Assembly: GCA_905182335.1 (NCBI GenBank)
Contig: CAJJBE010000001.1
Coordinates: forward strand, 186,001 to 250,000
Origin: Flavobacteriales bacterium UBA4466
GTDB taxonomy: Bacteria > Bacteroidota > Bacteroidia > Flavobacteriales_D > Crocinitomicaceae
Direction: 5' to 3'
DNA length: 64,000 nt
Positions 5,489-25,201 of this stretch are shown piece after piece. The position numbers and the translations under genes are program-made. The notes beneath the pieces were generated by a model. That model did no database searches, was not told the DNA's origin, and was given only the letters and a program-made list of their open reading frames with translations. The first letter of the stretch is position 1. Every line of letters starts with the position of its first letter.

Positions 5489-6967
5489 TTATTGTTTTAC
5501 AATTCTAGCTGTTTTCTTGTTACTATCTTGAATGATGATTGCTTGATAGAAACCAGGATTGTAATCCGTTCCAATTCTAACATCTGTTTCTTGACGTAGG
5601 TCAACTAATCGTGTTTCGATTAATCTTCCTGTTCCGTCGTATACAGAAACTGATACTGGTGAACTTCTATCTTCAGAAGCGATGTGAAGCGTTGTTGCAT
5701 CACTGAATGGATTCGGAGACAACGTTGTCGAGAATTCGATTCCTTCTTCTTGTGCTAGGTCTTTCTGGATATAGTTTAGTATCATAGCCGAAGCAACAGG
5801 AGTAGTGACTGTGCAAACCGTACCATAAGCCCCTGTCCCTATGGCTGTCGTAACCTGAATGTCAATATCATATGTTATCCCTGGATTTAAATTAAGTATA
5901 CTTAATTGTAGTGATCTATAAGGCCTATCGACAATCAGCGTGTCCGTTCTATCAATAAATCTAAACCTATAGTTTGTTGCGTTTTCAGCATAGACGGCAA
6001 AGATCTGAGCGCTCATCGTTTGAACTGTGACATCGCAATAAGGTGTCGCCAACTGTGTAATTGGAAAGTCAGGTGTTGTGAATTGGCACACAGGACCAAA
6101 ATCACTCGTAATACCTCCAGTTAATGATACTTGAACATCAACATCATATGTTGTAATGTATGCTAAAGCAACTTGAGATAATGGTAAAGATCTAAATGGA
6201 CGATCGCTAATAATTGTATCTACTCCATTAATTAATCTAAATCTGTAATTAGTCGCTCCAATAACAGCATCTGCTTTTATATTGTTAAACATTGAATTAC
6301 CCGTGCTACCACAATAAGAGCTTGATAGTTGTGTAGTAGAGCTTGGTGTTTCAATAGCACAAGCAAGGCCAAAGCTACCTACAATACCATTGACAAGTAT
6401 TGTAACATCAACACTGTATATTTTATCGTAGTCTAATGCAAAATTAGACAAGGATACTGTTCTAAAAGGAGCATCATATATAATTGTATCTATCCCGTTA
6501 ATAAAACGAAACCTATAACTAGTTGCGCCAATAACAGCATCTGCTTTAATGCTACTAGTTAAAGAGCTAAGTGCAATGCCACAATAGATAGCCTCAACTT
6601 TTGTTGCAAAAAAAGGTTCTGTTGCTATCACACAGACTGATCCATAGTCTCCTGCTATGCCATTTATTGTAACTGCAACATCAACATTATATGCTTGATC
6701 CCCAGATAAAGGAAGATTGTATAGGGGCAACGATTTAAATGGTCGTTCGGCGATTAGAGTATCTGACCCGTATCCGACCTTAATAAACCGAAACCTATAA
6801 TTAGTTGCACCTGCAACAGGGTTTGCTTTAATAATAGTTGATAAAACAGTAACTGTTGAGTTACAATCTGCCGAATTTAATTGTGTTGTTGGCAAGTTAA
6901 CCCCCTGCGCCCTTGTTTCAAGTACGAATAGAGCAAAAAATCCAATTAAAAATGTAAAATGTTTCAT
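5489..6967 (-). CDS. T9SS type A secreted protein with four Fn3-like repeats
   Basis: The 492-residue product starts with a signal peptide (MKHFTFLIGFFALFVLETRAQ, cut here after AQ). Four beta-sandwich repeats of about 90-100 residues follow, each with the signature ATNYRFRF/L, then DTLI.DRPFRSL.LS and YDVDVQV, ending in a Cys-containing strand (VC.VTTP) and beginning at TQL....C. The repeats resemble Fn3 modules, but I do not recognise a named family. The last 80 residues are a T9SS type A sorting domain (LSPNPFSDATTLHI, VSVYDGTGRLIETRL, GFYQAIIIQDSNKKTARIVKQ cut). Such proteins cross the outer membrane by type IX secretion and are usually anchored to the surface. It is the shortest relative of the giant gene at 9049-25201, whose C-terminal six repeats are homologous. 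Function probably adhesive or structural. Confidence 0.85.
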   Translation of the reverse strand: MKHFTFLIGFFALFVLETRAQGVNLPTTQLNSADCNSTVTVLSTIIKANPVAGATNYRFRFIKVGYGSDTLIAERPFKSLPLYNLPLSGDQAYNVDVAVTINGIAGDYGSVCVIATEPFFATKVEAIYCGIALSSLTSSIKADAVIGATSYRFRFINGIDTIIYDAPFRTVSLSNFALDYDKIYSVDVTILVNGIVGSFGLACAIETPSSTTQLSSSYCGSTGNSMFNNIKADAVIGATNYRFRLINGVDTIISDRPFRSLPLSQVALAYITTYDVDVQVSLTGGITSDFGPVCQFTTPDFPITQLATPYCDVTVQTMSAQIFAVYAENATNYRFRFIDRTDTLIVDRPYRSLQLSILNLNPGITYDIDIQVTTAIGTGAYGTVCTVTTPVASAMILNYIQKDLAQEEGIEFSTTLSPNPFSDATTLHIASEDRSSPVSVSVYDGTGRLIETRLVDLRQETDVRIGTDYNPGFYQAIIIQDSNKKTARIVKQ

Positions 6968-7252: not shown

Positions 7253-8725
7253 TTATTGTTTTACAATTCTAGCTGTCTTTTTGTTACCATTTTGAATTAT
7301 TATAGCCTGATAGAACCCAGAATTATACTCTGTTCCAATTCTGATGTCTGTTTCTTGAGTTAGGTCAACCAATCGAGATTCAATTAACCTCCCTGTTCCG
7401 TCATATACAAAAACTGATACTGGTGCGTTTGTATCATCAGAGTTGATATTAAGCACTGCTACGTCATTGAATGGGTTAGGCGCCAATGTCGTCTCAAAAA
7501 CAATTCCTTCTTCTTGAGCTAGCCCTTTTTGAATATTACTTATTACAAAGGAGGATTGTGGAGTTGTCACTGTACAAACTGGACCATAATCTCCTACTAC
7601 TCCTCCTGCGGTCACCTGAATATCAATACTATATATTGTTCCGCCAAGAATACCAGGTTCTGATAAAGCCAAAGATCTATAGGGTCTATCTATTATCAAT
7701 GTATCAGTGCCGCTAATCAATCTAAACCTATAGTTTGTTGCGCCTGCTGCAAACATTGCAAACAACTGGCTATTCATTGAGCCTGGTGAACTACCACAAT
7801 AAAGAGGTGCTAACTGAGTGATTGGGAAATCTGTTGTTAATGTGCAAACTTCTCCATACTCACAAACTAAACCTTGAACTGTTGCTGCAACATCAACATT
7901 GTATACCTTATTAAACTCGAGTGGAACTTGACTAAATGGTAAAGCTCTAAAAGGACGATCAACTATTAATGTATCATTTCCATTTATTAACCTAAACCTG
8001 TAGTTTGTTGCCCCGCTGACTTGTGCTGCTTTGACAAGTCCGGATGAAATTGACTGTGTAACATAACCGCAATACTGACCTGCCAACTGCGTTTTTGGTA
8101 AAAAAATTCTTATTGTGCATGCATCGCCGAAATCGCCTGTTACTCCGCTAGATGTCACCTGAATATCAACTTTGTATGTTAAGCCGTATGTTATTCCTGG
8201 AACTGTATTCAGATATAAAGATCTGTAAGGGCGATCCTTAATAAGGGTATCACTTCCATTAATAAACCTAAATCTAAAGTTAGTGGCGCCTATGACATTG
8301 ACTGCAAACACCTGGCTAGCTAAATTACTCGTTGACATACTACAATACAATGGAGCTAATAGTGTTACAGGAATGATTGTTGTTACTGTACAAACACCTC
8401 CATACTCCCCTATAATTCCATTTAATGTTACTGCAATATCAACACTGTATGTCTGATTGTAGTCTAGGGCAATTAGTGTCAATTGTAAATTTCTAAATGG
8501 GCGGTCCACTATAACTGTATCTGACCCTAATCCAGGCTTAATAAAGCGAAATCTATAATTAGTTGCTCCTGCAACAAGATCTGCTTTAACCCAACCTGTT
8601 AAAGAAGTTATTGCTGAATTGCAGTTTGCAGCCTCTAATTGTGTTGTTTCTAAATTTAAGCTCTGCGCCTTTCCTTCGACTGTGAACAGAGCCAAGGCTC
8701 CAATCAGAAATATAAAATGTTTCAT
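7253..8725 (-). CDS. T9SS type A secreted protein with four Fn3-like repeats (paralog 2)
   Basis: At 490 residues, it is a full-length paralog of the neighbouring 5489-6967 product. It has the same signal peptide type (MKHFIFLIGALALFTVEGKAQ cut after AQ), four repeats with ATNYRFRF, DTLI.DRPFRSL and a closing VCT.TT strand, and a T9SS type A sorting domain (LAPNPFNDVAVLNI, VFVYDGTGRLIESRL, KKTARIVKQ). Its third and fourth repeats (with SGLVKAA.VSGATNYRF and CGSSPGSMNSQLFA) match closely two of the C-terminal repeats of the giant gene, so modules have been shared or exchanged among the three genes. It has its own terminator and its own copy of the upstream palindrome, so it is probably a separate transcript. 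Surface exposure is inferred; the ligand is unknown. Confidence 0.85.
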   Translation of the reverse strand: MKHFIFLIGALALFTVEGKAQSLNLETTQLEAANCNSAITSLTGWVKADLVAGATNYRFRFIKPGLGSDTVIVDRPFRNLQLTLIALDYNQTYSVDIAVTLNGIIGEYGGVCTVTTIIPVTLLAPLYCSMSTSNLASQVFAVNVIGATNFRFRFINGSDTLIKDRPYRSLYLNTVPGITYGLTYKVDIQVTSSGVTGDFGDACTIRIFLPKTQLAGQYCGYVTQSISSGLVKAAQVSGATNYRFRLINGNDTLIVDRPFRALPFSQVPLEFNKVYNVDVAATVQGLVCEYGEVCTLTTDFPITQLAPLYCGSSPGSMNSQLFAMFAAGATNYRFRLISGTDTLIIDRPYRSLALSEPGILGGTIYSIDIQVTAGGVVGDYGPVCTVTTPQSSFVISNIQKGLAQEEGIVFETTLAPNPFNDVAVLNINSDDTNAPVSVFVYDGTGRLIESRLVDLTQETDIRIGTEYNSGFYQAIIIQNGNKKTARIVKQ

Positions 8726-9048: not shown

Positions 9049-12000
9049 TTATTGTTTTACAATTCTAGCTGTTTTCTTGTTACCATCTTGAATGATGATT
9101 ACTTGATAGAAACCAGGATTGTAATCCGTTCCAATTCTAACATCTGTTTCTTGACGTAGGTCAACTAATCGTGTTTCGATTAATCTTCCTGTTCCGTCGT
9201 ATACAGAAACTGATACTGGTGAACTTGCATCTTCAGAAGCGATGTGAAGCGTTGTTGCATCACTGAATGGATTAGGAGACAATGTTGTCTCGAACTCGAT
9301 TCCCTCTTCCTGTGCTAGGTCTTTTTGGTTGTCGTTTATTACAATAGTCGACGACCCATCTGGCGTAGTTACTGTACAAACTGGACCAAAGTCTCCTGTC
9401 ATTCCACCTGCTGTTACTTGAATGTCAACATTATATGTTACACCCGTAAGTATACCTGGCTCTGATAAAGATAGAGATCTAAATGGTCTATCTATTAACA
9501 ATGTATCAGTACCGTTAATCAGTCTAAATCTATAGTTCGTTGCGCCATCAGCAAACAGTGCAAACACTTGACTACTCATTGACCCTGGTGAGCTACCACA
9601 ATAAAGAGGTGCTAACTGTGTCGTTGGGAAGTCTACTTGAACTGTACAAACATCTCCATAGTCTCCTACCACTCCACCAGCTGTTACCTGAACATCAACA
9701 TTATATGTCTTATCCAATGTAATTCCTGGTACTGTATTCAGAGTTAAAGATCTAAATGGACGATCAAGGATTAACGTGTCGTTTCCACTTATGAATCTAA
9801 ATCTATAGTTCGTTGCACCTGCAGCAAACATTGCGAAGATTTGACTATTCAACGATTGAGTTGTCATACCACAATATGCATCAGCTAACTTAGTTGTTGG
9901 GAAGTCGGTTGTTACTGTACAAACTGCACCGTAATCACAAACCTGTCCTTGAACTGTTGCTGCAACATCTACGTTGTAGACTTTGTTAAACTCAACGGCA
10001 ACTTGACTAAATGGTAGAGCTCTAAACGGACGGTCAACAATCAGTGTATCATTTCCATTTATTAATCTAAACCTGTAGTTCGTTGCTCCATCAACAGCCG
10101 CTGCTTTGATTAGACCTGATGTAACTGATTGTGTTACGTAACCACAGTACTGACCTGCCAACTGTGTTGTTGGTAGAACTGTTGTTATTGTACAAACATC
10201 TCCGAAGTCTCCTGTAACACCATAACATGTTGCTTGAACATCTACGTTGTATACTACACCGTATGTTATCTCTGGAACTGTATTCAGATATAGAGATCTA
10301 AATGGACGATCCTTAATAAGGGTGTCGTTTCCATTTATGAATCTAAATCTAAAGTTTGTTGCTCCCTCAGAGTTCATAGCAAACACTTGACTAACTAAGT
10401 TGTTAGTTGTAATGCCACAATACGCTGGTGCTAACTGTGTCGTTGGGAATGTTGTCGTTACCGTACAAACATCTCCAAAGTCTCCTGTAGCTCCTGCTAC
10501 TGTAACCTGAACGTCTACATTGTATGTTTTATCATACTCTACTGCAATACTGTTCAATGGTATATTTCTAAACGGACGATCTGCTATAAGCGTATCATTT
10601 CCATTGATAAATCTAAACCTAAAGTTAGATGCGTTGTCAACAATCTCTGCATAAATTAGTGCAGATAAGTTATCCGTAACATATCCACAGTACTGACCTG
10701 CAAGTTTTGTTTGAGGTCCTGGTGTCGTGATAGTACAAACTGTACCAAAGTCTCCCATTGATCCACTTAGAGTTACAGCAACATCTACACTGTATGTTGT
10801 AAGGTAATCTAACGAAACAAGACTCAATGGTAATGATCTAAATGTACGATCAACAATCAGTGTATCTGTACCGTCAATCAATCTAAATCTATAACTCTCT
10901 GACCCTGGAACAGCGTCTGCTTTGATAAGGTCAGTCATTGTAATAAGTGTTGAATTACAATCTGTAGCTTGTAGCTGTGTCGTTGGTAGAATAATACAAG
11001 AACCATCGTCATCTGTAGCAGTAGCATCATAGTTAGTAGCTAATGCATCAGTACAACCAGCTATCTCATCGTCATCACATATACCGTCACCGTCAGCATC
11101 AGCTAAACAAGCACCAGCACAGTCAAGACCTGCATCAGCATAAGTACAAGATAAATCATCATCTGTTGCTGTTGCATCGTAGTTACATGCAGATACATCA
11201 GTACAACCAACTACCTCATCGTCATCACATACACCGTCACCGTCAGCATCAGCTAAACAAGCGCCAGCACAGTCATAACCATCAGCAGGATAAATACAAG
11301 AAGCATTATCTGTTGCTGTTGCATCGTAGTTACATGCAGATGCATCAGTACAACCAACTACCTCATCGTCATCACATATACCGTCACCGTCAGCGTCAGC
11401 TAAACAAGCGCCAGCACAGTCATAACCTGCAGCAGCATAAGTACAAGATAAATCATCATCTGTTGCTGTTGCATCGTAGTTACATGCAGATACATCAGTA
11501 CAACCAACTACCTCATCGTCATCACATACACCGTCACTGTCAGCATCAGCTAAACAAGCGCCAGCACAGTCATAACCTGCAGCAGCATAAGTACAAGAAC
11601 CATCATCATCTGTAGCAGCAACAACATAGTTACATGCTAATGCATCAGTACAACCAACTACCTCATCGTCATCACAGATACCGTCACCGTCAGCATCAGC
11701 TAAACAAGCGCCAGCACAGTCATAACCTGCAGCAGGATAAATACAAGATAAATCATCATCTGTAGCAGCAACATCATAGTTACATGCTGTTGCATCTATA
11801 CAACCAGGCACTACAACACTACACGATGCAGTAAATGTAGCTAATACATCTCCTTGAACAGGCATTACAGTTCCTCCAGCATAAAGGTCAATCCACTCAG
11901 ACACAACGTTACCGGTAGGGTCATACAATGTAAATCCTAATTCATCTGGGTATACTCCTTCGTTGGCAAGTACAATCTCAGTAGCTAAGTTGTCACAAAG

Positions 12001-15000
12001 AGCTATGTTAACAGTAGCAAAACCACCAGAAGTTAACTCTTGTGTAGAAACAACTTGTCCACCTTGAACAAAATTAACACTTGCTCCATCCCATCCATCA
12101 CCAGCAGCATCTGTCATATCAAACACGAAGTCACATTGTTCAGAAGATTGACAAATAGGATAAAGACAAGAGCCATCATCTGTATCAGCAGCTGAGTCGT
12201 AGTTGGTAGCAAGAGGATCTATACATCCAAAGATCGCACAAGTACCAATTGTTCCTGAAGCATCAGCTCCTGAAGCGATAACAGCACCTGAAGCGTCTGT
12301 TACATCCCATGAGTTCTCAGATGGATAACCATCTGTATTTAAATATGTAAGGTCAATACATCCTGTAAGGTCTAGACATAATGTAAATGCATCCTGCGTT
12401 CCAGCAGTCATTACATAGTCAACACCCTCTACAGTCATTGTCTGACCACCGTCTCCGTATGAATCATATAGATTTAACGTTACAGCTGTTCCACCATTTG
12501 CACAGTTACCTGCACAATCTAAAGGAGCTGCAGCGAAAGTACAAGTACCATCGTCAGCAGTTGCTGCAGCGTCATAGTTACATGCTGTTGCATCTGTACA
12601 TCCAGGTACTCCATAAGTACATGAACCATCGTCTACTGTAGCAGTAGCGTCATAGTTAGCAGCTGTTGCATCCATACATCCAGGTATTGGACACGTTCCA
12701 ACCTGAACACTAGCAGAAGAACCATCATCATTTATTCCATCAATAGTGTAAACTACACCATCAATTGATAATGTACCTCCATTCCAACTATCTCCGTATA
12801 TATCAACAAGATTCACACTGTAAGCTGAACCTAGGTCGATACAGCCATCAAAGCCTGTAACACCTGAAGTCATCTCAGCTAAAACGTTTCCATCACAATC
12901 CGTGATAGTGAAACTATTCTCACTAGGATAAGAACCTGCAGTATATAGTATAGCGTTATCCAAACAAGGATAAACACATGAACCATCATCAATCGTTGCG
13001 GCTGCATCATAGTTAGTTGCTGTTGCGTCCATACATCCTTGTACAGCACAAGTACCAACTTGACCTGAAGCATCAGCTCCTGAAGCGATAACAGCACCTG
13101 AAGCGTCTGTTACATCCCATGAGTTCTCACTTGGATAACCATCTGTGTTTAAATAAGCAAGGTCAATACATCCTGTAAGGTCTAGACATAATGTAAATGC
13201 ATCCTGCGTTCCAGCAGTCATTACATAGTCAACACCCTCTACAGTCATTGTCTGACCACCATCTCCGTATGAATCATATAGATTCAACGTTACAGCAGTA
13301 CCTCCATTTGCACAAGCTCCAGCACAATCTAAAGGAGCTGCAGCGAAAGTACAAGTACCATCGTCAGCAGTTGCTGCCGCGTCGTAGTTACATGCTGTTG
13401 CATCTGTACATCCAGGTACTCCATAAGTACATGAACCGTCGTCTACTGTAGCAGTAGCATCGTAGTTGGCAGCAGTAGCATCCATACATCCAGGTATTGG
13501 ACATGCTCCAACTTGAACGCTAGAAGCAGTACCGTCATCATTTACTCCATCAAGAGTGTAAACTACACCATCTATTGATAATGTACCTCCATTCCAGTTA
13601 TCACCGTATGAATCAACAAGATTCACACTGTAAGCTGAACCTAGGTCGATACAGCCATCAAAGCCTGTAACACCTGAAGTCATCTCAGCTAAAACGTTTC
13701 CATCACAATCCGTGATAGTGAAACTGTTTTCACCTGCATAAGAACCTGCAGTATATAGTATAGCGTTATCCAAACAAGGATAAACACATGAACCATCATC
13801 AATCGTTGCGGCTGCATCATAGTTAGTTGCTGTTGCGTCCATACATCCTTGTACAGCACAAGTACCAACTTGACCTGAAGCATTACCTCCTGAAGCGATA
13901 ACAGTACCTGAAGCATCTGTTACATCCCATGAGTTCTCTGTATCCCATCCATTTGCAGGAGTAAATATTGCATCTGTACAAGCAGTAAGGTCTAAACATA
14001 ATGTGAATGACTCTGTCCCTCCAGTAATAGTGTAATCTACACCATCAACCGTTAAGATAGACTGAGAACCATCGGAGTAGCCCCATCCATCATTGTATTG
14101 ATCATAAAGACTTAACGTTACAGCTGAGCCTCCATTTGCACAGTTACCTGCACAGTCTAAAGGAGCGGCAGCATATGTACAGTTACCATCGTCAGCAGTT
14201 GCTGCCGCGTCGTAGTTACATGCTGTTGCGTCTGTACATCCAGGTACTCCATAAGTACATGAACCGTCGTCTACTGTAGCAGTAGCATCGTAGTTAGCAG
14301 CAGTAGCATCCATACATCCAGGTATTGGACACGTTCCAACCTGAACACTAGCAGAAGAACCATCATCATTTATTCCATCAAGAGTGTAAACTACACCATC
14401 AATTGATAATGTACCTCCATTCCAGCTATCACCGTATGAATCATCAAGATTTACACTGTAAGTTGAACCTAGATCGATACAACCATCAAAGAAAGCCACT
14501 CCAAATGCCATATCAGCTAAAACGTTTCCATCACAATCCGTGATAGTGAAACCATTCTCACCTGCATAAGAACCTGCAGTATATAGTATAGCGTTATCCA
14601 AACAAGGATAAACACATGAACCATCATCAATCGTTGCGGCTGCATCATAGTTAGTTGCTGTTGCGTCCATACATCCTTGTACAGCACAAGCACCAACTTG
14701 ACCTGAAGCATCAGCTCCTGAAGCGATAACAGCACCTGAAGCGTCTGTTACATCCCATGAGTTCTCACTTGGATAACCATCTGTGTTTAAATAAGCAAGG
14801 TCAATACATCCTGTAAGGTCTAGACATAATGTAAATGCATCCTGCGTTCCAGCAGTCATTACATAGTCAACACCCTCTACAGTCATTGTCTGACCACCAT
14901 CTCCGTATGAATCATATAGATTTAACGTTACCTCGTCGAATAAACAAGAAGGAGGAGTAGCAGAACAGTTTGTTGTAAATGTAGCTAACACATCTCCAGC

Positions 15001-18000
15001 AGCACCAGCTAATGAGCCTGTAGCCATAGAAGCGACAGTCGAACCACTTGGATCTACTAAATCAAACGATACTTCAATGGCATAAGAACCAACTGTTGCA
15101 TAAACAACGTCAGTTGCAACACCATCACATAATGAGATAGTAGCAGTTCCTGAAGCACCTGTAGTAATTGTCTGAGTAGAAACTACGATTCCGTTTTGTA
15201 CGAAACTAATTTCATTGCCGTTCCAACCATCACCCCAATCATCTGTCATATTGAACGTGTAGTCACATTGACTAGCAGCATCACAATTATCAGTTGAGAA
15301 TGAAATTGGTCCAACCCAAGTACTTTGATCAGTACCACAATCAGACTGTACATAAACATCATATGAAGTTCCAGCAGTTAATCCAGAGATAGGCTCTGTT
15401 GTGTTTGCTGATCCTACTATTTGCGTTCCAGCACCTAATACAAATCCGGCAACACCGTATTCAATATTAGATAACCCTGATCCAGCAGCGTCAGTCCAAG
15501 AGACATCAGCAGAAACATCAGTTATGTTTGATGCAGCTAAAGCTAAAGGATCTAAACAATTAGGTGTTTCTTCGAAAGTAACATCATCAATTGCGATGTC
15601 ATCATAGAAGCCTGCAGAATTTGGCTCAGAGAATGTAAACCTAACTTGAGCAGGACCTGTAAAAGTCAATGCTGATAAGCCAATTGTTTTCTCTTCCCAT
15701 CCTGCAGTATTTGTATTATAAGTACCAACAGCATTCCAAGCAGCACCATCCCAAACTTCAACGTCTAGTTGAGAGTTAGAGTTTCCTTCATTATCACTAA
15801 GCTCGTAGAATGAAAGCTGAGGAACCGCTAAGGAGTTAATATCTACCATAGGACTTGTCAAAGTTGCTGGTGCATCTGTACCAGAAGCATCAACCCATGC
15901 AAAGTATCCGTCAGTATCAGTATTACCTGTTATAGTTCCATTGTTACCGATATGGTTAAACCCTGGAGTATTACTAAACTGCCAGTTTTCTCCACCAGCC
16001 ATAGACCAACAATTTGGAATAGCACCTGCATTATCCATTCCTTCTGACCAAGGCATTGCTAAAATACCACAGTCCGTTGTGAATGAATAAGGTCCAACCC
16101 AGTTACTTTGGAAATCTCCACAGTCTGTTTGTACGTAGAAATCATATGTAGTATTGGCAGTTAATCCAGAAATAGATTCTGGATTATTCGTTGTTCCAAA
16201 AACTTGAGTTCCTGTACCTAACGTATATCCAGCAATACCATATTCAACATTAGACGAACCTGAAGCAGCATTATCACTCCATCCTAAGTCAGCAGAACTA
16301 ACTGTTATGTTAGATGCTGTTAGAGCAGTTGGGTCTAAACATGCTGGAGCAGTACAATCAGTTGTAAATGTAGCTATTACATCTCCAGCTGAAGCTAATA
16401 ATGAGCCTTGAGCTAAAGTAGCAACTGTAACTCCGAAAGGATCTACTACTGTAAACGATACCTCAGAAGCAAAAGAACCAGCGGCTGATAAAACAATATC
16501 AGTTGCAACGCCATCACACAATGGTATAGTTACAGAACTTCCTGAACCAGTAACAACTGTCTGAGTAGAGACTACGTAACCATTTTGTACGAAGCTCATT
16601 TCATTACCATTCCAACCGTCACCATAGCTATCAACCATATTGAATGTGTAGTCACATTGACTAGCAGCATTACAAAGACCAGTTGTAAATGATATTGGTC
16701 CAACCCAAGCACTTTGAATAGAACCACAATCAGACTGTACGTAGAACTCGTATGTAGTTACAGGAGTCAATCCAGAAATAGATTCTGGGTTGTTCGCTGT
16801 TCCTAAAACTTGTGTTCCAGTTCCTAATGTAAATCCGGCAACACCGTATTCAATATTAGAAAGACCTGAAGCAGCATTATCTGTCCAACCTAAATCAGCT
16901 GTAGAAACGCCAACATTTGTAGCTGTTAAAGCTGATGGGTCTTGACATGCTGGAGGAGTACAGTTAGTTGTAAATGTAGCTATTACTGTTCCAGCTGTAA
17001 GAGGCAAGCCTCCTGTAGCTAAAGTAGAAACAGTAGCCCCATAAGGATCTACTAAATTAAATGATACCTCAGAAGCATAAGAACCAGCTGTTGATAAAAC
17101 AATATCAGTTGCAACGCCATCACATAATGCGATAGCAGCAGTTCCTAAAAATCCAGTAGCGATTGTGTTACTAGAAACAACAACTCCATTCTGTACGAAG
17201 CTAATTTCATTTCCATTCCATCCATCACCGAAGCTATCTATCATATTAAATGTGTAATCACATTGACTAGCAGCATCACAAAGATTCGTTGTAAATGTAA
17301 TTGGTCCAACCCAAGTACTTTGATCAGTACCACAATCAGACTGTACATAAACGTCATATGAAGTACCAGCAGTTAATCCAGAGATAGACTCTGTTGTATT
17401 TGCAGTACCAATTTGAGTTCCAGCACCTAACACAAATCCGGTAACACCGTATTCAACATTAGATAACCCTGATCCAGCAGCGTCAGTCCAAGAGACATCA
17501 GCAGAAACATCAGTTATGTTTGATGAAGCTAAAGCTAAAGGCTCAATACAACTAGGAGCTTCTGTAAAAGTAACATCGTCAATTGCGATGTCATCGTAGA
17601 AAGCTAAAACGTCTGGTTCAGAGAATGTAAATCTAACTTGAGCAGCACCAGTGAAAATTATTCCTGGCATGTCAATATTTTTCTGTTCCCATCCTGCAGT
17701 ATTTGTATTATAAGTACCAACAGCATTCCAAGCAGCACCATCCCAAACTTCAACGTCTAGTTGAGAGTTAGAGTTTCCTTCATTATCACTAAGCTCGTAG
17801 AATGATAAACGAGGCGTAGTTAAAGAACTGATATCTATCAATGGACTTGTCAAAGTCACTGCATCACCAGCAACACCGCCAGAGGCATCAACCCATGCAA
17901 AGTATCCATCAGTAGCACTGTTGCCAGTTATAGCTCCATTATTACCAATATGGCTAAACCCTGGAGTATTACTAAACAACCAGTTCTCAGCACCTCCCAT

Positions 18001-21000
18001 AGACCAACAATTTGGAATAGCACCCGCGTTTTCCATTCCTTCTGACCAAGGCATTGCTAAAATACCACAATCCGTTGTGAATGTATAAGGTCCAACCCAT
18101 GTAGCTAAAGCACTACCACAATCAACCTGAATATAGAAATCATATGTTGTATTGGATGGTAATCCAGCAAAAACGAAGAAAGTGTCAGCTACTGGTATAA
18201 CAAAAGCACCCGCACCTGTATTTCCTTGAGCAATACCAGTTGGCATAAATTCAAGGTTGTATGAACCTGTAAGAGCATCATCCCAAACTAAATCAACAGA
18301 AGAAGCAGTAATATTAACCGCACCTAAACCAGTAGCAGCATCACAAAGAGGAGCTGTACAATTTGCTACAAATGTAGCTAAGACATCTCCAGTAGCACCA
18401 GCTAATGTTCCTGTAACTAAAGTTCCAACGTTAACCCCGAATGGATCAATTACATTAAATGAAATCTCACCTTCATAAGTTCCCACATTTTCAATAACAA
18501 GTTCAGTCCCGAAATCAGTACAAAGAGCAACACTCGCTGTAGCTGAAGAACCTGATGCTAAAGTTTGAGTAGAAACCGTTATTCCATTCTGAACAAAGCT
18601 AAAGCTCCATCCATTCCATCCATCACCGTAGCTATCTACCATCTCAAATGTGTAATCACATTGATCAGCAGCTCCACAAAGATTTGTTGAGAAAGAATAA
18701 GGTCCAGCCCAAAGACTTTGACCAGTTCCACAATCAGACTGTACATAGAAATCATATGTAGTCCCTGAAGCTAACCCAGAGATTGACTCTGTAGTATTTA
18801 CTGAACCTAATATTTGTGTTCCAGAACCTAAAGTGAATCCAGCAACGCCGTACTCAACATTAGATAGCCCTGAAGCAGCAACATCATTCCAGCCTAAGTC
18901 AGCAGCATCTGTTGTAATATTTGAAGCCATTAAATTATCTGGCTCTAAGCAATTTGGTGTTTCTTCAAAAGAAACATCATCAATTGCGATGTCATCATAG
19001 AAGTCGCCAGAAACTGGCTCAGAGAAAGTAAATCTAACTTGAGCAGGACCTGTAAAAGTCAATGCTGATAAGTCAATTATTTTCTCTTCCCATCCTCCTG
19101 ATGAATTTGTATTATATGTAGCTACAGAATCCCAAGAAGAACCGGTATAAACCTCTACAAATAAATTCGAGTTAGAGAATCCTTCGTTATGGCTAAGCTC
19201 ATAAAAAGAAAGTTGAGGAACTGATAATGAACTAATATCAATAGCAGGACTTGTTAAAGTCGCAGAATCACCAGCAACACCACCAGAGGCATCAACCCAT
19301 GCAAAATAGCTATCAGTATCAGTGTTACCTGTTATAGCTCCATTATTACCAATATGGTTAAACCCTGGAGTATTACTAAATAACCAGTTCTCTGTACCTG
19401 TCATGCTCCAACAGCCTGGCATAACACCTGCATTGTCCATTCCTTCTGACCAAGGCAAAGCAAGGATATCACAAGGAGTTGTAAATGCAATTGGCCCAAC
19501 CCAGTTACTTTGGAAATCTCCACAGTCTGTTTGTACATAGAACTCATACGCAGTATTAGCCGTTAATCCAGATATAGATTCTGGATTATTCGCTGTTCCT
19601 ACAATCTGTGTCCCTGCTCCTAATGTGAATCCAGCATCGCCGTACTCAACATTAGCAGATCCTGAAGAAGCAGCATCTGTCCAGCTTAAGTCAGCTGAAG
19701 ATGCCGTGATGTTAGATGCTGACAAAGCAGCTGGATCTAAACATGCCGGTGGAGTACAATTTGTTGTAAACGTAGCTAATACTTGACCCGGTGCTCCAAA
19801 TAGAGCGCCTGCAGCTAATGTTGCAACATTAATACCGTAAGGATCTACTACATCGAATGAAACTTCACCTCCCCATGAACCAACTGTTGAATAAACAACG
19901 TCAGTTGCAACACCATCACACAATGATATGGATGCAGTAGCAGAAGAGCCAGTAGCAATTGTGTTTGTAGAAACTACAACTCCATTTTGTACGAAGCTAA
20001 TTTCATTTCCATTCCAACCATCACCGTAAGAATCTACCATGTTAAATGTGTAAACACATTGACTAGCAGGATCACATAAAGGTGTCGTAAATGATATTGG
20101 TCCAACCCAAGAACTTTGGTTAACGCCACAGTCAGACTGTACGTAAAACTCGTAAGTAACTCCAGTTGATAATCCAGAAATAGACTCTGAAACATTTGCA
20201 GTTCCTAAAATTTGAGCCCCTGTACCTAATGTAAATCCAGAAACGCCGTATTCAACATTAGATAACCCTGAAGCAGAAACATCGGTCCAACTTAAGTCAG
20301 CAGAAGTTTCTGTAACATTGGACGCCGTTAAAGCAGTTGGGTCTAAACAAGGAGGTGTACAATCACCAATCGTTCCTGAAGCATCTGCTCCTGAAGCGAT
20401 AACAGCACCTGAAGCGTCTGTTACATCCCATGAGTTCTCAGATGGATAACCATCTGTATTTAAATATGTAAGGTCAATACATCCTGTAAGGTCTAGACAT
20501 AATGTAAATGCATCCTGCGTTCCAGCAGTCATTACATAGTCAACACCCTCTACAGTCATTGTCTGACCACCGTCTCCGTATGAATCATATAGATTTAACG
20601 TTACCTCGTCTCCAGTACATGGAGCAGTACAACTTGTTGCAAATGTTATTAAGATATCTCCTGCAACTGCAGCTAATGAACCAACTGTTAAACTTGCAAC
20701 AGTAGTTCCAAAAGGATCTACAACATCAAATCCGATCTCAGATGGGTACGAACTTTCTGTTGTATAAACCAAGTCAGTTGCAACACCATCACATAATGGA
20801 ATTGTTGCCGTACCTGCGGCTAATGATGCTAGTGTTTCAGTAGAAACTACAGATCCATTTTGCACGAAGCTAATTTCACCACCGTTCCATCCGTCACCGA
20901 ACGCATCTATCATGTTAAATGTGTAATCACATGTAACGCAAGCAGGAGCACAAACACCAACTTGAGCGCTAGCAGAAGAACCATCATCATTTACTCCATC

Positions 21001-21762
21001 AAGAGTGTAAACTACACCATCTATTGATAATGTACCTCCATTCCAGCTATCACCGTATGAATCAACAAGATTTACATCATAGTCTGAACCTAGGTCGATA
21101 CAGCCATCAAAGCCTGTAACACCTGAAGTCATCTCAGCTAAAACGTTTCCATCACAATCCGTGATAGTGAAACTGTTTTCACCTGCATAAGAACCTGCAG
21201 TATATAGTATAGCGTTATCCAAACAAGGATAAACACATGAACCATCATCAATCGTTGCGGCTGCATCATAGTTAGTTGCTGTTGCGTCCATACATCCTTG
21301 TACAGCACAAGTACCAACTTGACCTGAAGCATTACCTCCTGAAGCGATAACAGTACCTGAAGCATCTGTTACATCCCATGAGTTCTCTGTATCCCATCCA
21401 TTTGCAGGAGTAAATATTGCATCTGTACAAGCAGTAAGGTCTAAACATAATGTGAATGACTCTGTCCCTCCAGTAATAGTGTAATCTACACCATCAACCG
21501 TTAAGATAGACTGAGAACCATCGGAGTAGCCCCATCCATCATTGTATTGATCATAAAGACTTAACGTTACAGCTGAGCCTCCATTTGCACAGTTACCTGC
21601 ACAGTCTAAAGGAGCGGCAGCATATGTACAGTTACCATCGTCAGCAGTTGCTGCCGCGTCGTAGTTACATGCTGTTGCGTCTGTACATCCAGGTACTCCA
21701 TAAGTACATGAACCGTCGTCTACTGTAGCAGTAGCATCGTAGTTAGCAGCAGTAGCATCCAT
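9049..21762 (-). CDS. Giant T9SS type A repeat protein, main C-terminal part (4237 codons)
   Basis: This frame continues the gene that starts at 25201; the two are split by a frame change at about 21911, so the ATG at 21762 is probably not a real start. In order: cysteine-rich units (CMDATATNYDAAATIDDGSC type) alternating with beta-rich units (NLYDSYGDGG and CLDNAILYTAGSY types); then Fn3-like domains (SGL..GT.Y.FYVQSDCG) alternating with NMVDSYGDGWNGNE units, and three MAM-like domains at about residues 763-938, 1232-1405 and 1897-2068 (PWSEGM, NCWSM, FYDDIAIDDV). More cysteine-rich units follow, then about five thrombospondin-type-3-like repeats (LADADGDGICDDDE) at 3318-3592. The C-terminus has six Fn3-like repeats (ATNYRFRF...DRPFRSL) and a type A sorting domain. 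Asp/Asn-rich loops suggest calcium binding. It is likely a very large surface adhesin or filament; the role is inferred. Confidence 0.82.
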   Translation of the reverse strand: MDATAANYDATATVDDGSCTYGVPGCTDATACNYDAAATADDGNCTYAAAPLDCAGNCANGGSAVTLSLYDQYNDGWGYSDGSQSILTVDGVDYTITGGTESFTLCLDLTACTDAIFTPANGWDTENSWDVTDASGTVIASGGNASGQVGTCAVQGCMDATATNYDAAATIDDGSCVYPCLDNAILYTAGSYAGENSFTITDCDGNVLAEMTSGVTGFDGCIDLGSDYDVNLVDSYGDSWNGGTLSIDGVVYTLDGVNDDGSSASAQVGVCAPACVTCDYTFNMIDAFGDGWNGGEISFVQNGSVVSTETLASLAAGTATIPLCDGVATDLVYTTESSYPSEIGFDVVDPFGTTVASLTVGSLAAVAGDILITFATSCTAPCTGDEVTLNLYDSYGDGGQTMTVEGVDYVMTAGTQDAFTLCLDLTGCIDLTYLNTDGYPSENSWDVTDASGAVIASGADASGTIGDCTPPCLDPTALTASNVTETSADLSWTDVSASGLSNVEYGVSGFTLGTGAQILGTANVSESISGLSTGVTYEFYVQSDCGVNQSSWVGPISFTTPLCDPASQCVYTFNMVDSYGDGWNGNEISFVQNGVVVSTNTIATGSSATASISLCDGVATDVVYSTVGSWGGEVSFDVVDPYGINVATLAAGALFGAPGQVLATFTTNCTPPACLDPAALSASNITASSADLSWTDAASSGSANVEYGDAGFTLGAGTQIVGTANNPESISGLTANTAYEFYVQTDCGDFQSNWVGPIAFTTPCDILALPWSEGMDNAGVMPGCWSMTGTENWLFSNTPGFNHIGNNGAITGNTDTDSYFAWVDASGGVAGDSATLTSPAIDISSLSVPQLSFYELSHNEGFSNSNLFVEVYTGSSWDSVATYNTNSSGGWEEKIIDLSALTFTGPAQVRFTFSEPVSGDFYDDIAIDDVSFEETPNCLEPDNLMASNITTDAADLGWNDVAASGLSNVEYGVAGFTLGSGTQILGSVNTTESISGLASGTTYDFYVQSDCGTGQSLWAGPYSFSTNLCGAADQCDYTFEMVDSYGDGWNGWSFSFVQNGITVSTQTLASGSSATASVALCTDFGTELVIENVGTYEGEISFNVIDPFGVNVGTLVTGTLAGATGDVLATFVANCTAPLCDAATGLGAVNITASSVDLVWDDALTGSYNLEFMPTGIAQGNTGAGAFVIPVADTFFVFAGLPSNTTYDFYIQVDCGSALATWVGPYTFTTDCGILAMPWSEGMENAGAIPNCWSMGGAENWLFSNTPGFSHIGNNGAITGNSATDGYFAWVDASGGVAGDAVTLTSPLIDISSLTTPRLSFYELSDNEGNSNSQLDVEVWDGAAWNAVGTYNTNTAGWEQKNIDMPGIIFTGAAQVRFTFSEPDVLAFYDDIAIDDVTFTEAPSCIEPLALASSNITDVSADVSWTDAAGSGLSNVEYGVTGFVLGAGTQIGTANTTESISGLTAGTSYDVYVQSDCGTDQSTWVGPITFTTNLCDAASQCDYTFNMIDSFGDGWNGNEISFVQNGVVVSSNTIATGFLGTAAIALCDGVATDIVLSTAGSYASEVSFNLVDPYGATVSTLATGGLPLTAGTVIATFTTNCTPPACQDPSALTATNVGVSTADLGWTDNAASGLSNIEYGVAGFTLGTGTQVLGTANNPESISGLTPVTTYEFYVQSDCGSIQSAWVGPISFTTGLCNAASQCDYTFNMVDSYGDGWNGNEMSFVQNGYVVSTQTVVTGSGSSVTIPLCDGVATDIVLSAAGSFASEVSFTVVDPFGVTVATLAQGSLLASAGDVIATFTTDCTAPACLDPTALTASNITVSSADLGWSDNAASGSSNVEYGIAGYTLGTGTQVFGTTNNPESISGLTANTTYDFYVQTDCGDFQSNWVGPYSFTTDCGILAMPWSEGMDNAGAIPNCWSMAGGENWQFSNTPGFNHIGNNGTITGNTDTDGYFAWVDASGTDAPATLTSPMVDINSLAVPQLSFYELSDNEGNSNSQLDVEVWDGAAWNAVGTYNTNTAGWEEKTIGLSALTFTGPAQVRFTFSEPNSAGFYDDIAIDDVTFEETPNCLDPLALAASNITDVSADVSWTDAAGSGLSNIEYGVAGFVLGAGTQIVGSANTTEPISGLTAGTSYDVYVQSDCGTDQSTWVGPISFSTDNCDAASQCDYTFNMTDDWGDGWNGNEISFVQNGIVVSTQTITTGASGTATISLCDGVATDVVYATVGSYAIEVSFDLVDPSGSTVASMATGSLAGAAGDVLATFTTNCSATPPSCLFDEVTLNLYDSYGDGGQTMTVEGVDYVMTAGTQDAFTLCLDLTGCIDLAYLNTDGYPSENSWDVTDASGAVIASGADASGQVGACAVQGCMDATATNYDAAATIDDGSCVYPCLDNAILYTAGSYAGENGFTITDCDGNVLADMAFGVAFFDGCIDLGSTYSVNLDDSYGDSWNGGTLSIDGVVYTLDGINDDGSSASVQVGTCPIPGCMDATAANYDATATVDDGSCTYGVPGCTDATACNYDAAATADDGNCTYAAAPLDCAGNCANGGSAVTLSLYDQYNDGWGYSDGSQSILTVDGVDYTITGGTESFTLCLDLTACTDAIFTPANGWDTENSWDVTDASGTVIASGGNASGQVGTCAVQGCMDATATNYDAAATIDDGSCVYPCLDNAILYTAGSYAGENSFTITDCDGNVLAEMTSGVTGFDGCIDLGSAYSVNLVDSYGDNWNGGTLSIDGVVYTLDGVNDDGTASSVQVGACPIPGCMDATAANYDATATVDDGSCTYGVPGCTDATACNYDAAATADDGTCTFAAAPLDCAGACANGGTAVTLNLYDSYGDGGQTMTVEGVDYVMTAGTQDAFTLCLDLTGCIDLAYLNTDGYPSENSWDVTDASGAVIASGADASGQVGTCAVQGCMDATATNYDAAATIDDGSCVYPCLDNAILYTAGSYPSENSFTITDCDGNVLAEMTSGVTGFDGCIDLGSAYSVNLVDIYGDSWNGGTLSIDGVVYTIDGINDDGSSASVQVGTCPIPGCMDATAANYDATATVDDGSCTYGVPGCTDATACNYDAAATADDGTCTFAAAPLDCAGNCANGGTAVTLNLYDSYGDGGQTMTVEGVDYVMTAGTQDAFTLCLDLTGCIDLTYLNTDGYPSENSWDVTDASGAVIASGADASGTIGTCAIFGCIDPLATNYDSAADTDDGSCLYPICQSSEQCDFVFDMTDAAGDGWDGASVNFVQGGQVVSTQELTSGGFATVNIALCDNLATEIVLANEGVYPDELGFTLYDPTGNVVSEWIDLYAGGTVMPVQGDVLATFTASCSVVVPGCIDATACNYDVAATDDDLSCIYPAAGYDCAGACLADADGDGICDDDEVVGCTDALACNYVVAATDDDGSCTYAAAGYDCAGACLADADSDGVCDDDEVVGCTDVSACNYDATATDDDLSCTYAAAGYDCAGACLADADGDGICDDDEVVGCTDASACNYDATATDNASCIYPADGYDCAGACLADADGDGVCDDDEVVGCTDVSACNYDATATDDDLSCTYADAGLDCAGACLADADGDGICDDDEIAGCTDALATNYDATATDDDGSCIILPTTQLQATDCNSTLITMTDLIKADAVPGSESYRFRLIDGTDTLIVDRTFRSLPLSLVSLDYLTTYSVDVAVTLSGSMGDFGTVCTITTPGPQTKLAGQYCGYVTDNLSALIYAEIVDNASNFRFRFINGNDTLIADRPFRNIPLNSIAVEYDKTYNVDVQVTVAGATGDFGDVCTVTTTFPTTQLAPAYCGITTNNLVSQVFAMNSEGATNFRFRFINGNDTLIKDRPFRSLYLNTVPEITYGVVYNVDVQATCYGVTGDFGDVCTITTVLPTTQLAGQYCGYVTQSVTSGLIKAAAVDGATNYRFRLINGNDTLIVDRPFRALPFSQVAVEFNKVYNVDVAATVQGQVCDYGAVCTVTTDFPTTKLADAYCGMTTQSLNSQIFAMFAAGATNYRFRFISGNDTLILDRPFRSLTLNTVPGITLDKTYNVDVQVTAGGVVGDYGDVCTVQVDFPTTQLAPLYCGSSPGSMSSQVFALFADGATNYRFRLINGTDTLLIDRPFRSLSLSEPGILTGVTYNVDIQVTAGGMTGDFGPVCTVTTPDGSSTIVINDNQKDLAQEEGIEFETTLSPNPFSDATTLHIASEDASSPVSVSVYDGTGRLIETRLVDLRQETDVRIGTDYNPGFYQVIIIQDGNKKTARIVKQ
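9370..10990 (-). repeat. Six Fn3-like C-terminal repeats of the giant protein
   Basis: Six repeats of about 90 codons share the pattern TQLA..YCG, ATNYRFRFI.GNDTLI.DRPFRSL and Y.VDVQVTV.G..GDFGDVCT. They are homologous to the four repeats in each of the two smaller neighbouring proteins. The immediately following sorting-domain DNA (about 9049-9330) is almost identical to that of the 5489-6967 gene but clearly diverged from that of 7253-8725. Confidence 0.75.
10990..11810 (-). repeat. Thrombospondin-type-3-like Asp-rich repeats
   Basis: About five tandem units of roughly 47 codons, each pairing a GCTDASACNYDATATDDD-type motif with C.GACLADADGDGICDDDE-type Asp loops (shown shortened). The DxDxDG spacing matches calcium-binding thrombospondin type 3 repeats. 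Such segments are often rigid, calcium-stiffened stalks placed between adhesive and anchoring parts, which fits their position just before the Fn3-like and sorting regions. Confidence 0.75.
12160..14940 (-). repeat. 810/828-bp higher-order repeat block, C-terminal set
   Basis: Units starting at equivalent points near 12879, 13689 and 14517 are spaced 810 and 828 bp apart. Each encodes a CLDNAILYTAGSY unit, two or three CMDATA/CTDATA cysteine units and a YDSYGDGG or YDQYNDGW unit. They are nearly identical in DNA to units near 21138-25130, with stretches of hundreds of bases that I read as the same. Both periods are multiples of three, so frame is kept. Confidence 0.8.
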
Positions 21763-24700
21763 ACATCCAGGTATTGGACACGTTCCAACCTGAACACTAG
21801 CAGAAGAACCATCATCATTTATTCCATCAAGAGTGTAAACTACACCATCAATTGATAATGTACCTCCATTCCAGCTATCACCGTATGAATCAACAAGATT
21901 TACACTGTAAGTCTGAACCTAGGTCGATACAGCCATCAAAGCCTGTAACACCTGAAGTCATCTCAGCTAAAACGTTTCCATCACAATCCGTGATAGTGAA
22001 ACTGTTTTCACCTGCATAAGAACCTGCAGTATATAGTATAGCGTTATCCAAACAAGGATAAACACATGAACCATCATCAATCGTTGCGGCTGCATCATAG
22101 TTAGTTGCTGTTGCGTCCATACATCCTTGTACAGCACAAGTACCAACTTGACCTGAAGCATTACCTCCTGAAGCGATAACAGTACCTGAAGCATCTGTTA
22201 CATCCCATGAGTTCTCTGTATCCCATCCATTTGCAGGAGTAAATATTGCATCTGTACAAGCAGTAAGGTCTAAACATAATGTGAATGACTCTGTCCCTCC
22301 AGTAATAGTGTAATCTACACCATCAACCGTTAAGATAGACTGAGAACCATCGGAGTAGCCCCATCCATCATTGTATTGATCATAAAGACTTAACGTTACA
22401 GCTGAGCCTCCATTTGCACAGTTACCTGCACAGTCTAAAGGAGCGGCAGCATATGTACAGTTACCATCGTCAGCAGTTGCTGCCGCGTCGTAGTTACATG
22501 CTGTTGCGTCTGTACATCCAGGTACTCCATAAGTACATGAACCGTCGTCTACTGTAGCAGTAGCATCGTAGTTAGCAGCAGTAGCATCCATACATCCAGG
22601 TATTGGACACGTTCCAACCTGAACACTAGCAGAAGAACCATCATCATTTATTCCATCAAGAGTGTAAACTACACCATCAATTGATAATGTACCTCCATTC
22701 CAGCTATCACCGTATGAATCATCAAGATTTACACTGTAAGTTGAACCTAGATCGATACAACCATCAAAGAAAGCCACTCCAAATGCCATATCAGCTAAAA
22801 CGTTTCCATCACAATCCGTGATAGTGAAACCATTCTCACCTGCATAAGAACCTGCAGTATATAGTATAGCGTTATCCAAACAAGGATAAACACATGAACC
22901 ATCATCAATCGTTGCGGCTGCATCATAGTTAGTTGCTGTTGCGTCCATACATCCTTGTACAGCACAAGTACCAACTTGACCTGAAGCATCAGCTCCTGAA
23001 GCGATAACAGCACCTGAAGCGTCTGTTACATCCCATGAGTTCTCACTTGGATAACCATCTGTGTTTAAATAAGCAAGGTCAATACATCCTGTAAGGTCTA
23101 GACATAATGTAAATGCATCCTGCGTTCCAGCAGTCATTACATAGTCAACACCCTCTACAGTCATTGTCTGACCACCATCTCCGTATGAATCATATAGATT
23201 CAACGTTACAGCAGTACCTCCATTTGCACAAGCTCCAGCACAATCTAAAGGAGCTGCAGCGAAAGTACAAGTACCATCGTCAGCAGTTGCTGCCGCGTCG
23301 TAGTTACATGCTGTTGCATCTGTACATCCAGGTACTCCATAAGTACATGAACCGTCGTCTACTGTAGCAGTAGCATCGTAGTTGGCAGCAGTAGCATCCA
23401 TACATCCAGGTATTGGACATGCTCCAACTTGAACGCTAGAAGCAGTACCGTCATCATTTACTCCATCAAGAGTGTAAACTACACCATCTATTGATAATGT
23501 ACCTCCATTCCAGTTATCACCGTATGAATCAACAAGATTCACACTGTAAGCTGAACCTAGGTCGATACAGCCATCAAAGCCTGTAACACCTGAAGTCATC
23601 TCAGCTAAAACGTTTCCATCACAATCCGTGATAGTGAAACTGTTTTCACCTGCATAAGAACCTGCAGTATATAGTATAGCGTTATCCAAACAAGGATAAA
23701 CACATGAACCATCATCAATCGTTGCGGCTGCATCATAGTTAGTTGCTGTTGCGTCCATACATCCTTGTACAGCACAAGTACCAACTTGACCTGAAGCATT
23801 ACCTCCTGAAGCGATAACAGTACCTGAAGCATCTGTTACATCCCATGAGTTCTCTGTATCCCATCCATTTGCAGGAGTAAATATTGCATCTGTACAAGCA
23901 GTAAGGTCTAAACATAATGTGAATGACTCTGTCCCTCCAGTAATAGTGTAATCTACACCATCAACCGTTAAGATAGACTGAGAACCATCGGAGTAGCCCC
24001 ATCCATCATTGTATTGATCATAAAGACTTAACGTTACAGCTGAGCCTCCATTTGCACAGTTACCTGCACAGTCTAAAGGAGCGGCAGCATATGTACAGTT
24101 ACCATCGTCAGCAGTTGCTGCCGCGTCGTAGTTACATGCTGTTGCGTCTGTACATCCAGGTACTCCATAAGTACATGAACCGTCGTCTACTGTAGCAGTA
24201 GCATCGTAGTTAGCAGCAGTAGCATCCATACATCCAGGTATTGGACACGTTCCAACCTGAACACTAGCAGAAGAACCATCATCATTTATTCCATCAAGAG
24301 TGTAAACTACACCATCAATTGATAATGTACCTCCATTCCAGCTATCACCGTATGAATCATCAAGATTTACACTGTAAGTTGAACCTAGATCGATACAACC
24401 ATCAAAGAAAGCCACTCCAAATGCCATATCAGCTAAAACGTTTCCATCACAATCCGTGATAGTGAAACCATTCTCACCTGCATAAGAACCTGCAGTATAT
24501 AGTATAGCGTTATCCAAACAAGGATAAACACATGAACCATCATCAATCGTTGCGGCTGCATCATAGTTAGTTGCTGTTGCGTCCATACATCCTTGTACAG
24601 CACAAGCACCAACTTGACCTGAAGCAGAACCACCTGAAGCGATAACAACACCTGAAGCGTCTGTTACATCCCATGAGTTCTCACTTGGATAACCATCTGT

Positions 24701-25130
24701 ATTTAAATATGTAAGATCAATACAAGATGTAAGGTCTAGACATAATGTAAATGCATCCTGCGTTCCAGCAGTCATTGCATAGTCAACACCCTCTACAGTC
24801 ATTGTCTGACCACCATCTCCGTATGAATCATATAGATTCAACGTTACAGCATCGAATAGACAAGGAGTAGCACACGTACCAACGGTACCTGAAGCACTGC
24901 CTCCTGAAGCGATAACAGCACCTGAAGCGTCTGTTACATCCCATGAGTTCTCACTTGGATAACCATCTGTGTTTAAATAAGCAAGGTCAATACATCCTGT
25001 AAGGTCTAGACATAATGTAAATGCATCCTGCGTTCCAGCAGTCATTACATAGTCAACACCCTCTACAGTCATTGTCTGACCACCATCTCCGTATGAATCA
25101 TATAGATTCAACGTTACCTCATCGAACGAG
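20360..25130 (-). repeat. 810/828-bp higher-order repeat block, N-terminal set
   Basis: Equivalent points recur near 21138, 21967, 22795, 23605 and 24433: spacings 829, 828, 810 and 828 bp. The units alternate between a GENGFTITDCDGNVLADM variant and a GENSFTITDCDGNVLAEM variant. All spacings are multiples of three except the 829-bp one, which coincides exactly with the frame break between the two long reading frames. Confidence 0.85.
21082..22739 (-). repeat. 829-bp tandem duplication that breaks the reading frame
   Basis: 21082-21910 and 21911-22739 align base for base with a single mismatch that I can see (A at 21893 versus T at 22722). The junction at about 21911 joins the left side of one repeat variant (GTCTGAACCT, also at 21082) to the end of another (ACACTGTAA), adding one base relative to all other copies. 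Because 829 is not divisible by three, the upstream frame stops at 21890. Removing one copy makes the frame continuous from 25201 to 9049. It may be a real unequal crossover or an assembly error. Confidence 0.8.
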
Positions 25131-25201
25131 CACGGTGATTGAGCGCTGGCCTGCCATGGCAACATGGTAAAGAAAGCAATCAAAAGCGTAAAAAATTTCA
25201 T
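21890..25201 (-). CDS. Giant T9SS type A repeat protein, N-terminal part
   Basis: This is the start of the giant secreted protein. The frame is open from 25258, but the ATG at 25201 is preferred because it begins a clean signal peptide (MKFFTLLIAFFTMLPWQASAQ, cut after AQ) like those of the two paralogs. Two YDSYGDGG units (DEVTLNLYDSYGDGGQTM, then a conserved SENSWDVTDASG) follow. Then come alternating CLDNAILYTAGSY units, cysteine-rich CMDATATNYDAA units and YDQYNDGWGY units. The frame ends prematurely in GCIDLGSDLQCKSC at 21890, where the 829-bp duplication shifts frame; the continuation is the 9049-21762 entry. If the duplication is artificial or excised, the product is about 5,107 residues. 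If it is real and uncorrected, this part would be secreted to the periplasm without a T9SS signal. Confidence 0.82.
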   Translation of the reverse strand: MKFFTLLIAFFTMLPWQASAQSPCSFDEVTLNLYDSYGDGGQTMTVEGVDYVMTAGTQDAFTLCLDLTGCIDLAYLNTDGYPSENSWDVTDASGAVIASGGSASGTVGTCATPCLFDAVTLNLYDSYGDGGQTMTVEGVDYAMTAGTQDAFTLCLDLTSCIDLTYLNTDGYPSENSWDVTDASGVVIASGGSASGQVGACAVQGCMDATATNYDAAATIDDGSCVYPCLDNAILYTAGSYAGENGFTITDCDGNVLADMAFGVAFFDGCIDLGSTYSVNLDDSYGDSWNGGTLSIDGVVYTLDGINDDGSSASVQVGTCPIPGCMDATAANYDATATVDDGSCTYGVPGCTDATACNYDAAATADDGNCTYAAAPLDCAGNCANGGSAVTLSLYDQYNDGWGYSDGSQSILTVDGVDYTITGGTESFTLCLDLTACTDAIFTPANGWDTENSWDVTDASGTVIASGGNASGQVGTCAVQGCMDATATNYDAAATIDDGSCVYPCLDNAILYTAGSYAGENSFTITDCDGNVLAEMTSGVTGFDGCIDLGSAYSVNLVDSYGDNWNGGTLSIDGVVYTLDGVNDDGTASSVQVGACPIPGCMDATAANYDATATVDDGSCTYGVPGCTDATACNYDAAATADDGTCTFAAAPLDCAGACANGGTAVTLNLYDSYGDGGQTMTVEGVDYVMTAGTQDAFTLCLDLTGCIDLAYLNTDGYPSENSWDVTDASGAVIASGADASGQVGTCAVQGCMDATATNYDAAATIDDGSCVYPCLDNAILYTAGSYAGENGFTITDCDGNVLADMAFGVAFFDGCIDLGSTYSVNLDDSYGDSWNGGTLSIDGVVYTLDGINDDGSSASVQVGTCPIPGCMDATAANYDATATVDDGSCTYGVPGCTDATACNYDAAATADDGNCTYAAAPLDCAGNCANGGSAVTLSLYDQYNDGWGYSDGSQSILTVDGVDYTITGGTESFTLCLDLTACTDAIFTPANGWDTENSWDVTDASGTVIASGGNASGQVGTCAVQGCMDATATNYDAAATIDDGSCVYPCLDNAILYTAGSYAGENSFTITDCDGNVLAEMTSGVTGFDGCIDLGSDLQCKSC

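Follow-up and report, generated by a model that had tools for sequence, protein, structure and literature searches.

Large surface proteins built from tandem, nearly identical units, as at the locus described here, are known as Periscope Proteins (SasG, Rib, Sgo0707 and others). The high DNA identity of their units likely permits intragenic recombination and a change in unit number, as that paper holds (PMC8201768). In Limosilactobacillus reuteri, the cmbA macrosatellite consists of identical intragenic repeats in the longest predicted gene of its genomes, and two strains carry 11 and 8 copies, respectively; the region holding cmbA was truly deleted in one stock, while the absence of another region was an assembly artefact (PMC13339910). 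Since the loss of the cmbA region was a true deletion, it provides no precedent for a misassembled repeat joint.

The window analysed here is a stretch of 64,000 nucleotides (C1:186001-250000, C1 being its contig) from a Flavobacteriales genome of 2.36 Mb in 7 contigs, which is 92% complete. Its RadA shares up to 89% identity with the RadA of Crocinitomicaceae or Flavobacteriales MAGs, which suggests an environmental member of the Bacteroidota. None of the seven contigs gave a 16S rRNA match; 9 of 14 control genomes did. The locus is most likely a single giant gene whose repeat-built product is exported by the T9SS. Annotation of the assembly as it stands splits it into two proteins, of which one lacks an export signal and the other a start.

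A giant gene assembled as two reading frames

The gene lies on the minus strand and is assembled as two ORFs (Table 1). Its true start is likely the ATG at 25201, where the protein has a hydrophobic start, judged by eye to be a putative signal peptide. As assembled, the length of 9049-25201 is not divisible by three. When either copy of an 829-bp tandem pair is removed, 25201-9049 becomes a single frame, free of internal stops, of 5,108 codons when the terminal stop is counted, in agreement with the one frame of about 5,107 codons that an earlier sequence-only reading of this DNA had proposed. The ATG at 21762 was considered as an independent start of the 3' ORF and rejected: it encodes the Met of a recurrent unit motif, GCMDATAANYD, and is therefore not evidence for a start. 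Outside the joint the gene is open throughout, and a comparison of the T unit R3 with the first A unit gives a pS of 0.28 and a pN of 0.10; the gene looks maintained on both of these grounds.

The 4,237-aa ORF has fn3 and MAM-like modules (PF00041 and PF00629 matches) and a C-terminal T9SS type A sorting domain in residues 4162-4237 (TIGR04183, 31.6 bits against a cut-off of 23); the Pfam model PF18962 gives 24.3 bits on this ORF, below its cut-off of 27. The genome also encodes SprA, a part of the T9SS, in an open frame of 2,449 aa (SprA_N, PF14349, 515 bits). The giant protein may act as a surface stalk. The structure model of one unit is weak, with a mean pLDDT of 51 and a strand-rich portion at residues 121-210 whose block means are 64-80.

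Further repeats are present in the gene. A 120-bp exact repeat (15694-15813 and 17686-17805) is shared between two modules of its middle part, and the translated C-terminal part has six diverged module copies with a motif like FRFRFINGNDTLI (about 9400-10700, minus strand). Downstream, on the same strand, are two adjoining ORFs, 5489-6967 (492 aa) and 7253-8725 (490 aa), each with a T9SS sorting-domain match slightly below the Pfam cut-off.

Table 1. Positions of the giant gene, its repeat units and the joint in the window
Feature	Position	Strand	Observation
5' part, 1,122 aa	21890..25258	-	stop just past the joint ends the ORF
3' part, 4,237 aa	9049..21762	-	holds the other units, fn3 and MAM-like modules, the second repeat array and a T9SS type A sorting domain
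R4, T unit	23551..24377	-	no difference from R3
A unit between R4 and R3	22766..23575	-	810 bp counted head to head; sequence comparison
R3, T unit forming the second tandem copy	21911..22739	-	sequence comparison
R2, T unit with hybrid head, 829-bp copy	21082..21910	-	one mismatch to R3
Hybrid joint	21850..21913	-	D-type (also A-type) to 21913, extra base, T-type 21911-21905, D-type 21893, T-type from 21850
R1, T unit of the second array	13635..14461	-	no difference from R3 and R4
A-type units of the second array, last one partial	12148..13659	-	sequence comparison

The array was found in no other genome among the 34 of the genus and the 240 of the family, nor in the genome and viral contigs searched with short peptide patterns. 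Within the genus, DNA matches were obtained in 10 of the 34 genomes and protein matches in 32, the own genome included in both counts; the best outside it were 72 bp at 78% identity and 58 bits, respectively. In the family, 28 of the 240 genomes matched, again including the own, and the best of the others reached 54 bits over 68 residues. The peptide patterns matched two stretches in the genome contigs, neither of them a relative, and none in the viral contigs. Two of the three sibling genomes that have the neighbouring hydrolase were inspected, and no match to either part of the giant gene was seen in the 19.4 and 12 kb taken around it; the giant gene was also found at none of 80 RadA loci (kept from 573, with flanks of at most 8 kb and many shorter).

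The 829-bp tandem pair and its hybrid joint

The arrays are made of two unit types, T (276 residues, 828 bp) and A (270 residues, 810 bp), which are the spacings that had been given for the surrounding repeats. The T unit occurs four times in the gene (R1 to R4), and the order along the gene is T (R4), A, T (R3), hybrid head, T body (R2), D exit. R1, R3 and R4 show no differences over 1,056 bp (from 21913 and equivalents), and the two arrays, 9.9 kb apart, share an exact match of 1,783 bp (12928-14710 and 22844-24626). Units as alike as these have either been traded within the gene or been made alike by consensus.

The near-identical tandem copies described by the sequence-only reading, 21082-21910 and 21911-22739, hold to the base: each is 829 bp long, and they have one mismatch (A at 21893, T at 22722), a likeness that rules out a chance repeat. 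Extended into the flanks, the match covers 832 bp, again with one mismatch (21081-21912 and 21910-22741). The anomaly in length is one base over the 828-bp unit. R2 has 8 mismatches to R1 over 929 bp, seven of them at 21047-21083, at and just past the copy's exit-side end, and the eighth at 21893. Because R1, R3 and R4 are free of differences and up to 10 kb apart, the identity of the tandem pair is silent on its age. The proposal of a fresh unequal crossover therefore keeps its geometry, which fits an unequal exchange, and loses its freshness, T units up to 10 kb off being equally identical.

One extra base at the joint breaks the frame, and another D-type base follows 18 bp on. We compared the joint (hybrid head at 21937) with a D head (21108) and a T head (22765). 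As far as 21913 the hybrid carries the D state at 17 informative sites, at all of which A and D agree; after that the T head takes over, so the junction does combine two repeat variants as had been suggested. The states read, in order, D, T, D, T, as expected from a mixing of two templates. The 26-base sequence of the joint has a single place in the genome even when up to 3 mismatches are tolerated. Set against the remaining T units, the 829-bp copy departs at two points, the extra base and 21893, and is otherwise a perfect match; both departures lie less than 20 bp from the switch and are thus probably part of the joining event or of its base calling. The extra base is not within a run, and a homopolymer slip was rejected. 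An A-type head is less favoured as the donor: the joint is the A head with one base inserted, and it then differs from A at two nearby sites, with the inserted base left without explanation.

The D and T heads are of equal length, so an ordinary homologous exchange should yield 828 bp, in frame. Under two of four scoring schemes, minimap2-like and racon-like, the two heads align with two compensating one-base gaps that are two or three bases apart (three equal optima); a bwa-like score does not prefer gaps there, and an edit-like score places further ones. The joint keeps both inserted bases, hence 829 rather than 828 bp, and a single switch between the two gaps gives the same extra base. This switch sits in an identical tract of 2-3 bp, with tracts of 42 and 40 bp less than 100 bp away, which is an odd site for homologous exchange. 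An unequal exchange involving the D head (21108) and the T head (22765) produces this overall geometry; an over-counted unit would give the same succession of T unit, hybrid D/T head, T body and D exit.

Origin of the frame break

The frame break is probably an assembly or consensus flaw at the joint, which is more likely than a real break. We infer that the gene is intact in the cell and that its units recombine. The near-identical units of about 276 residues would exchange through recombination, the assembly or consensus would have blended D and T unit heads at the joint, and the break would not belong to the living gene. As to the form of the flaw, blending around an over-counted unit and blending around a real extra in-frame 828-bp unit with miscalled joint bases are almost equally probable, each at less than even odds and the former slightly ahead. 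As to the assembly mis-join offered as the second option of the sequence-only reading, an over-counted unit would look alike, and a segment present twice in the assembly adds some weight to the artefact side.

A toy simulation gauged how readily blending produces such a joint: five D-to-T ratios were each run with two drafts, using 16 reads at 2% error and 150 trials per setting. At equal shares, up to 39 of 150 outcomes matched neither head type, and the exact observed joint appeared in 25 of 1,500 trials. With this yield, and with two of the four scoring schemes lacking the two-gap form, blending permits the joint and does not strongly predict it; by our estimate, a genuine clean switch confined to 2-3 bp out of the 223 bp tabulated is about equally improbable. 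In a benchmark of bacterial long-read assembly, most errors left after short-read polishing were in repeats, and without polishing both repeat and non-repeat sequence contained errors (PMC8442456). Counted against a flaw is that the assembled 1.78-kb exact repeats and a 13-kb contig overlap suggest long reads, which could span the tandem and support both copies.

That overlap served as a control. The last 12,987 bases of another contig, C7 (C7:70855-83841), and the first 12,986 of the window's own contig (C1:1-12986) are one segment present twice, an unmerged end-to-end overlap that is 99.7% identical. Its alignment has 12,992 columns, of which 38 differ, 11 of these being indel columns. Nearly all of the differences (34 of 38) fall in and between two tandem-repeat ORFs, where indels of 1-3 bp break the frames. 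Of these, 25 are between two tandem arrays (C1 5639-6570) and 9 within a 159-bp array (C1 7299-7774); the remaining 4 of the 38 are elsewhere, at C1 2242-3415. Over the differing stretch, the reading frames are 411 and 959 aa in the C7 version and 305, 146 and 363 aa in the C1 version. The assembly thus has, in genes with repeats, either base errors that disrupt frames or differences between strains, and this gives the artefact side some weight; the control segment is a contig tip, and the 829-bp joint is not at one. A test for unit blending was negative in the 159-bp array, where the C1 21-mer was found in other units for only one of the nine differing sites, and the local sequence around a one-base insertion is absent from all other units in both versions; for the other differing stretch, the nearest paralogues as a blending source are only 71-76% alike. 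Among the 14 contig tips compared (2 kb each) for signs of the sequencing method, there was one 69-bp exact overlap and no common length, the 2-kb limit being the reason why the 13-kb overlap did not show as a tip overlap.

A coding-potential scan covered 464 kb of the genome, including 10 kb of N, and flagged 37 candidate frame breaks, one of them in the giant gene. Ten of the 36 other candidate pairs were taken to Pfam, and no further break was established among them: eight have different families on the two sides and are therefore ordinary neighbours, and two were without clear outcome. The C7 gene of the 13-kb segment is among the other 26 candidates. Tandem arrays with a period of at least 60 lie within one stop-to-stop frame in 18 of 20 rows (4 of the 20 duplicate others, through overlapping loci or the twice-held segment), a lax test that also passed the C1 array with the inserted base; the exceptions are the giant-gene array and one 62-bp array.

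That the break is real is unlikely, although it has points in its favour. A D-head/T-head exchange, or a template switch over 2-3 bp, would have made a tandem copy with one extra base and turned the gene off in the sampled cells. A single clean switch from D to T, within the short match that separates the compensating gaps, gives exactly this base and needs no other event, and the arrays show other signs of exchange in the difference-free T units and the exact inter-array stretch. However, 21893 would require a second event, the switch would have occurred in one of the shortest identical tracts, both stretches are open outside the joint, and a MAG consensus would presumably show the break only if most molecules carried it. 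If the break were real, the N-terminal piece would be without the T9SS signal and the C-terminal piece without the signal peptide.

It is quite improbable that two alleles with different unit numbers in one population were merged by the assembler into a hybrid joint. Near-identical repeat surface proteins do vary in unit number among strains (PMC8201768; PMC13339910), and the twice-held segment could likewise represent two strains, but searches with 20500-21000 and 21082-21910 matched only the giant gene, apart from short matches of about 78% identity, and revealed no second allele. A built-in switch, in which the paired compensating gaps let unit number and on/off state vary together and reversibly, would be a very long shot, as would its corollary that a D/T exchange resolved between the gaps adds a unit out of frame and other exchanges add one in frame.

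Comparison with known repeat proteins

The giant protein resembles the Periscope kind by its near-identical units, and its length may vary. Unlike Periscope Proteins, it has a T9SS sorting domain, two separate arrays and two unit types, an N-terminal binding domain is not recognised in it, and among the genomes searched its units were found in one. The units of cmbA are 288 bp long (PMC13339910), compared with 828 and 810 bp in the giant gene. One base at a repeat joint can break the repeat-rich secreted giants of uncultured Bacteroidota on paper, and a contig overlap inside an assembly can act as a rough control. With T9SS type A cargo, the giant protein shares the C-terminal domain of TIGR04183 and a genome that encodes SprA; it differs from such cargo in its size of about 5,100 residues as one frame, and in units with only short, weak matches in the genomes searched. 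If the copy is real, the locus would be a candidate T9SS gene with a variable number of units.
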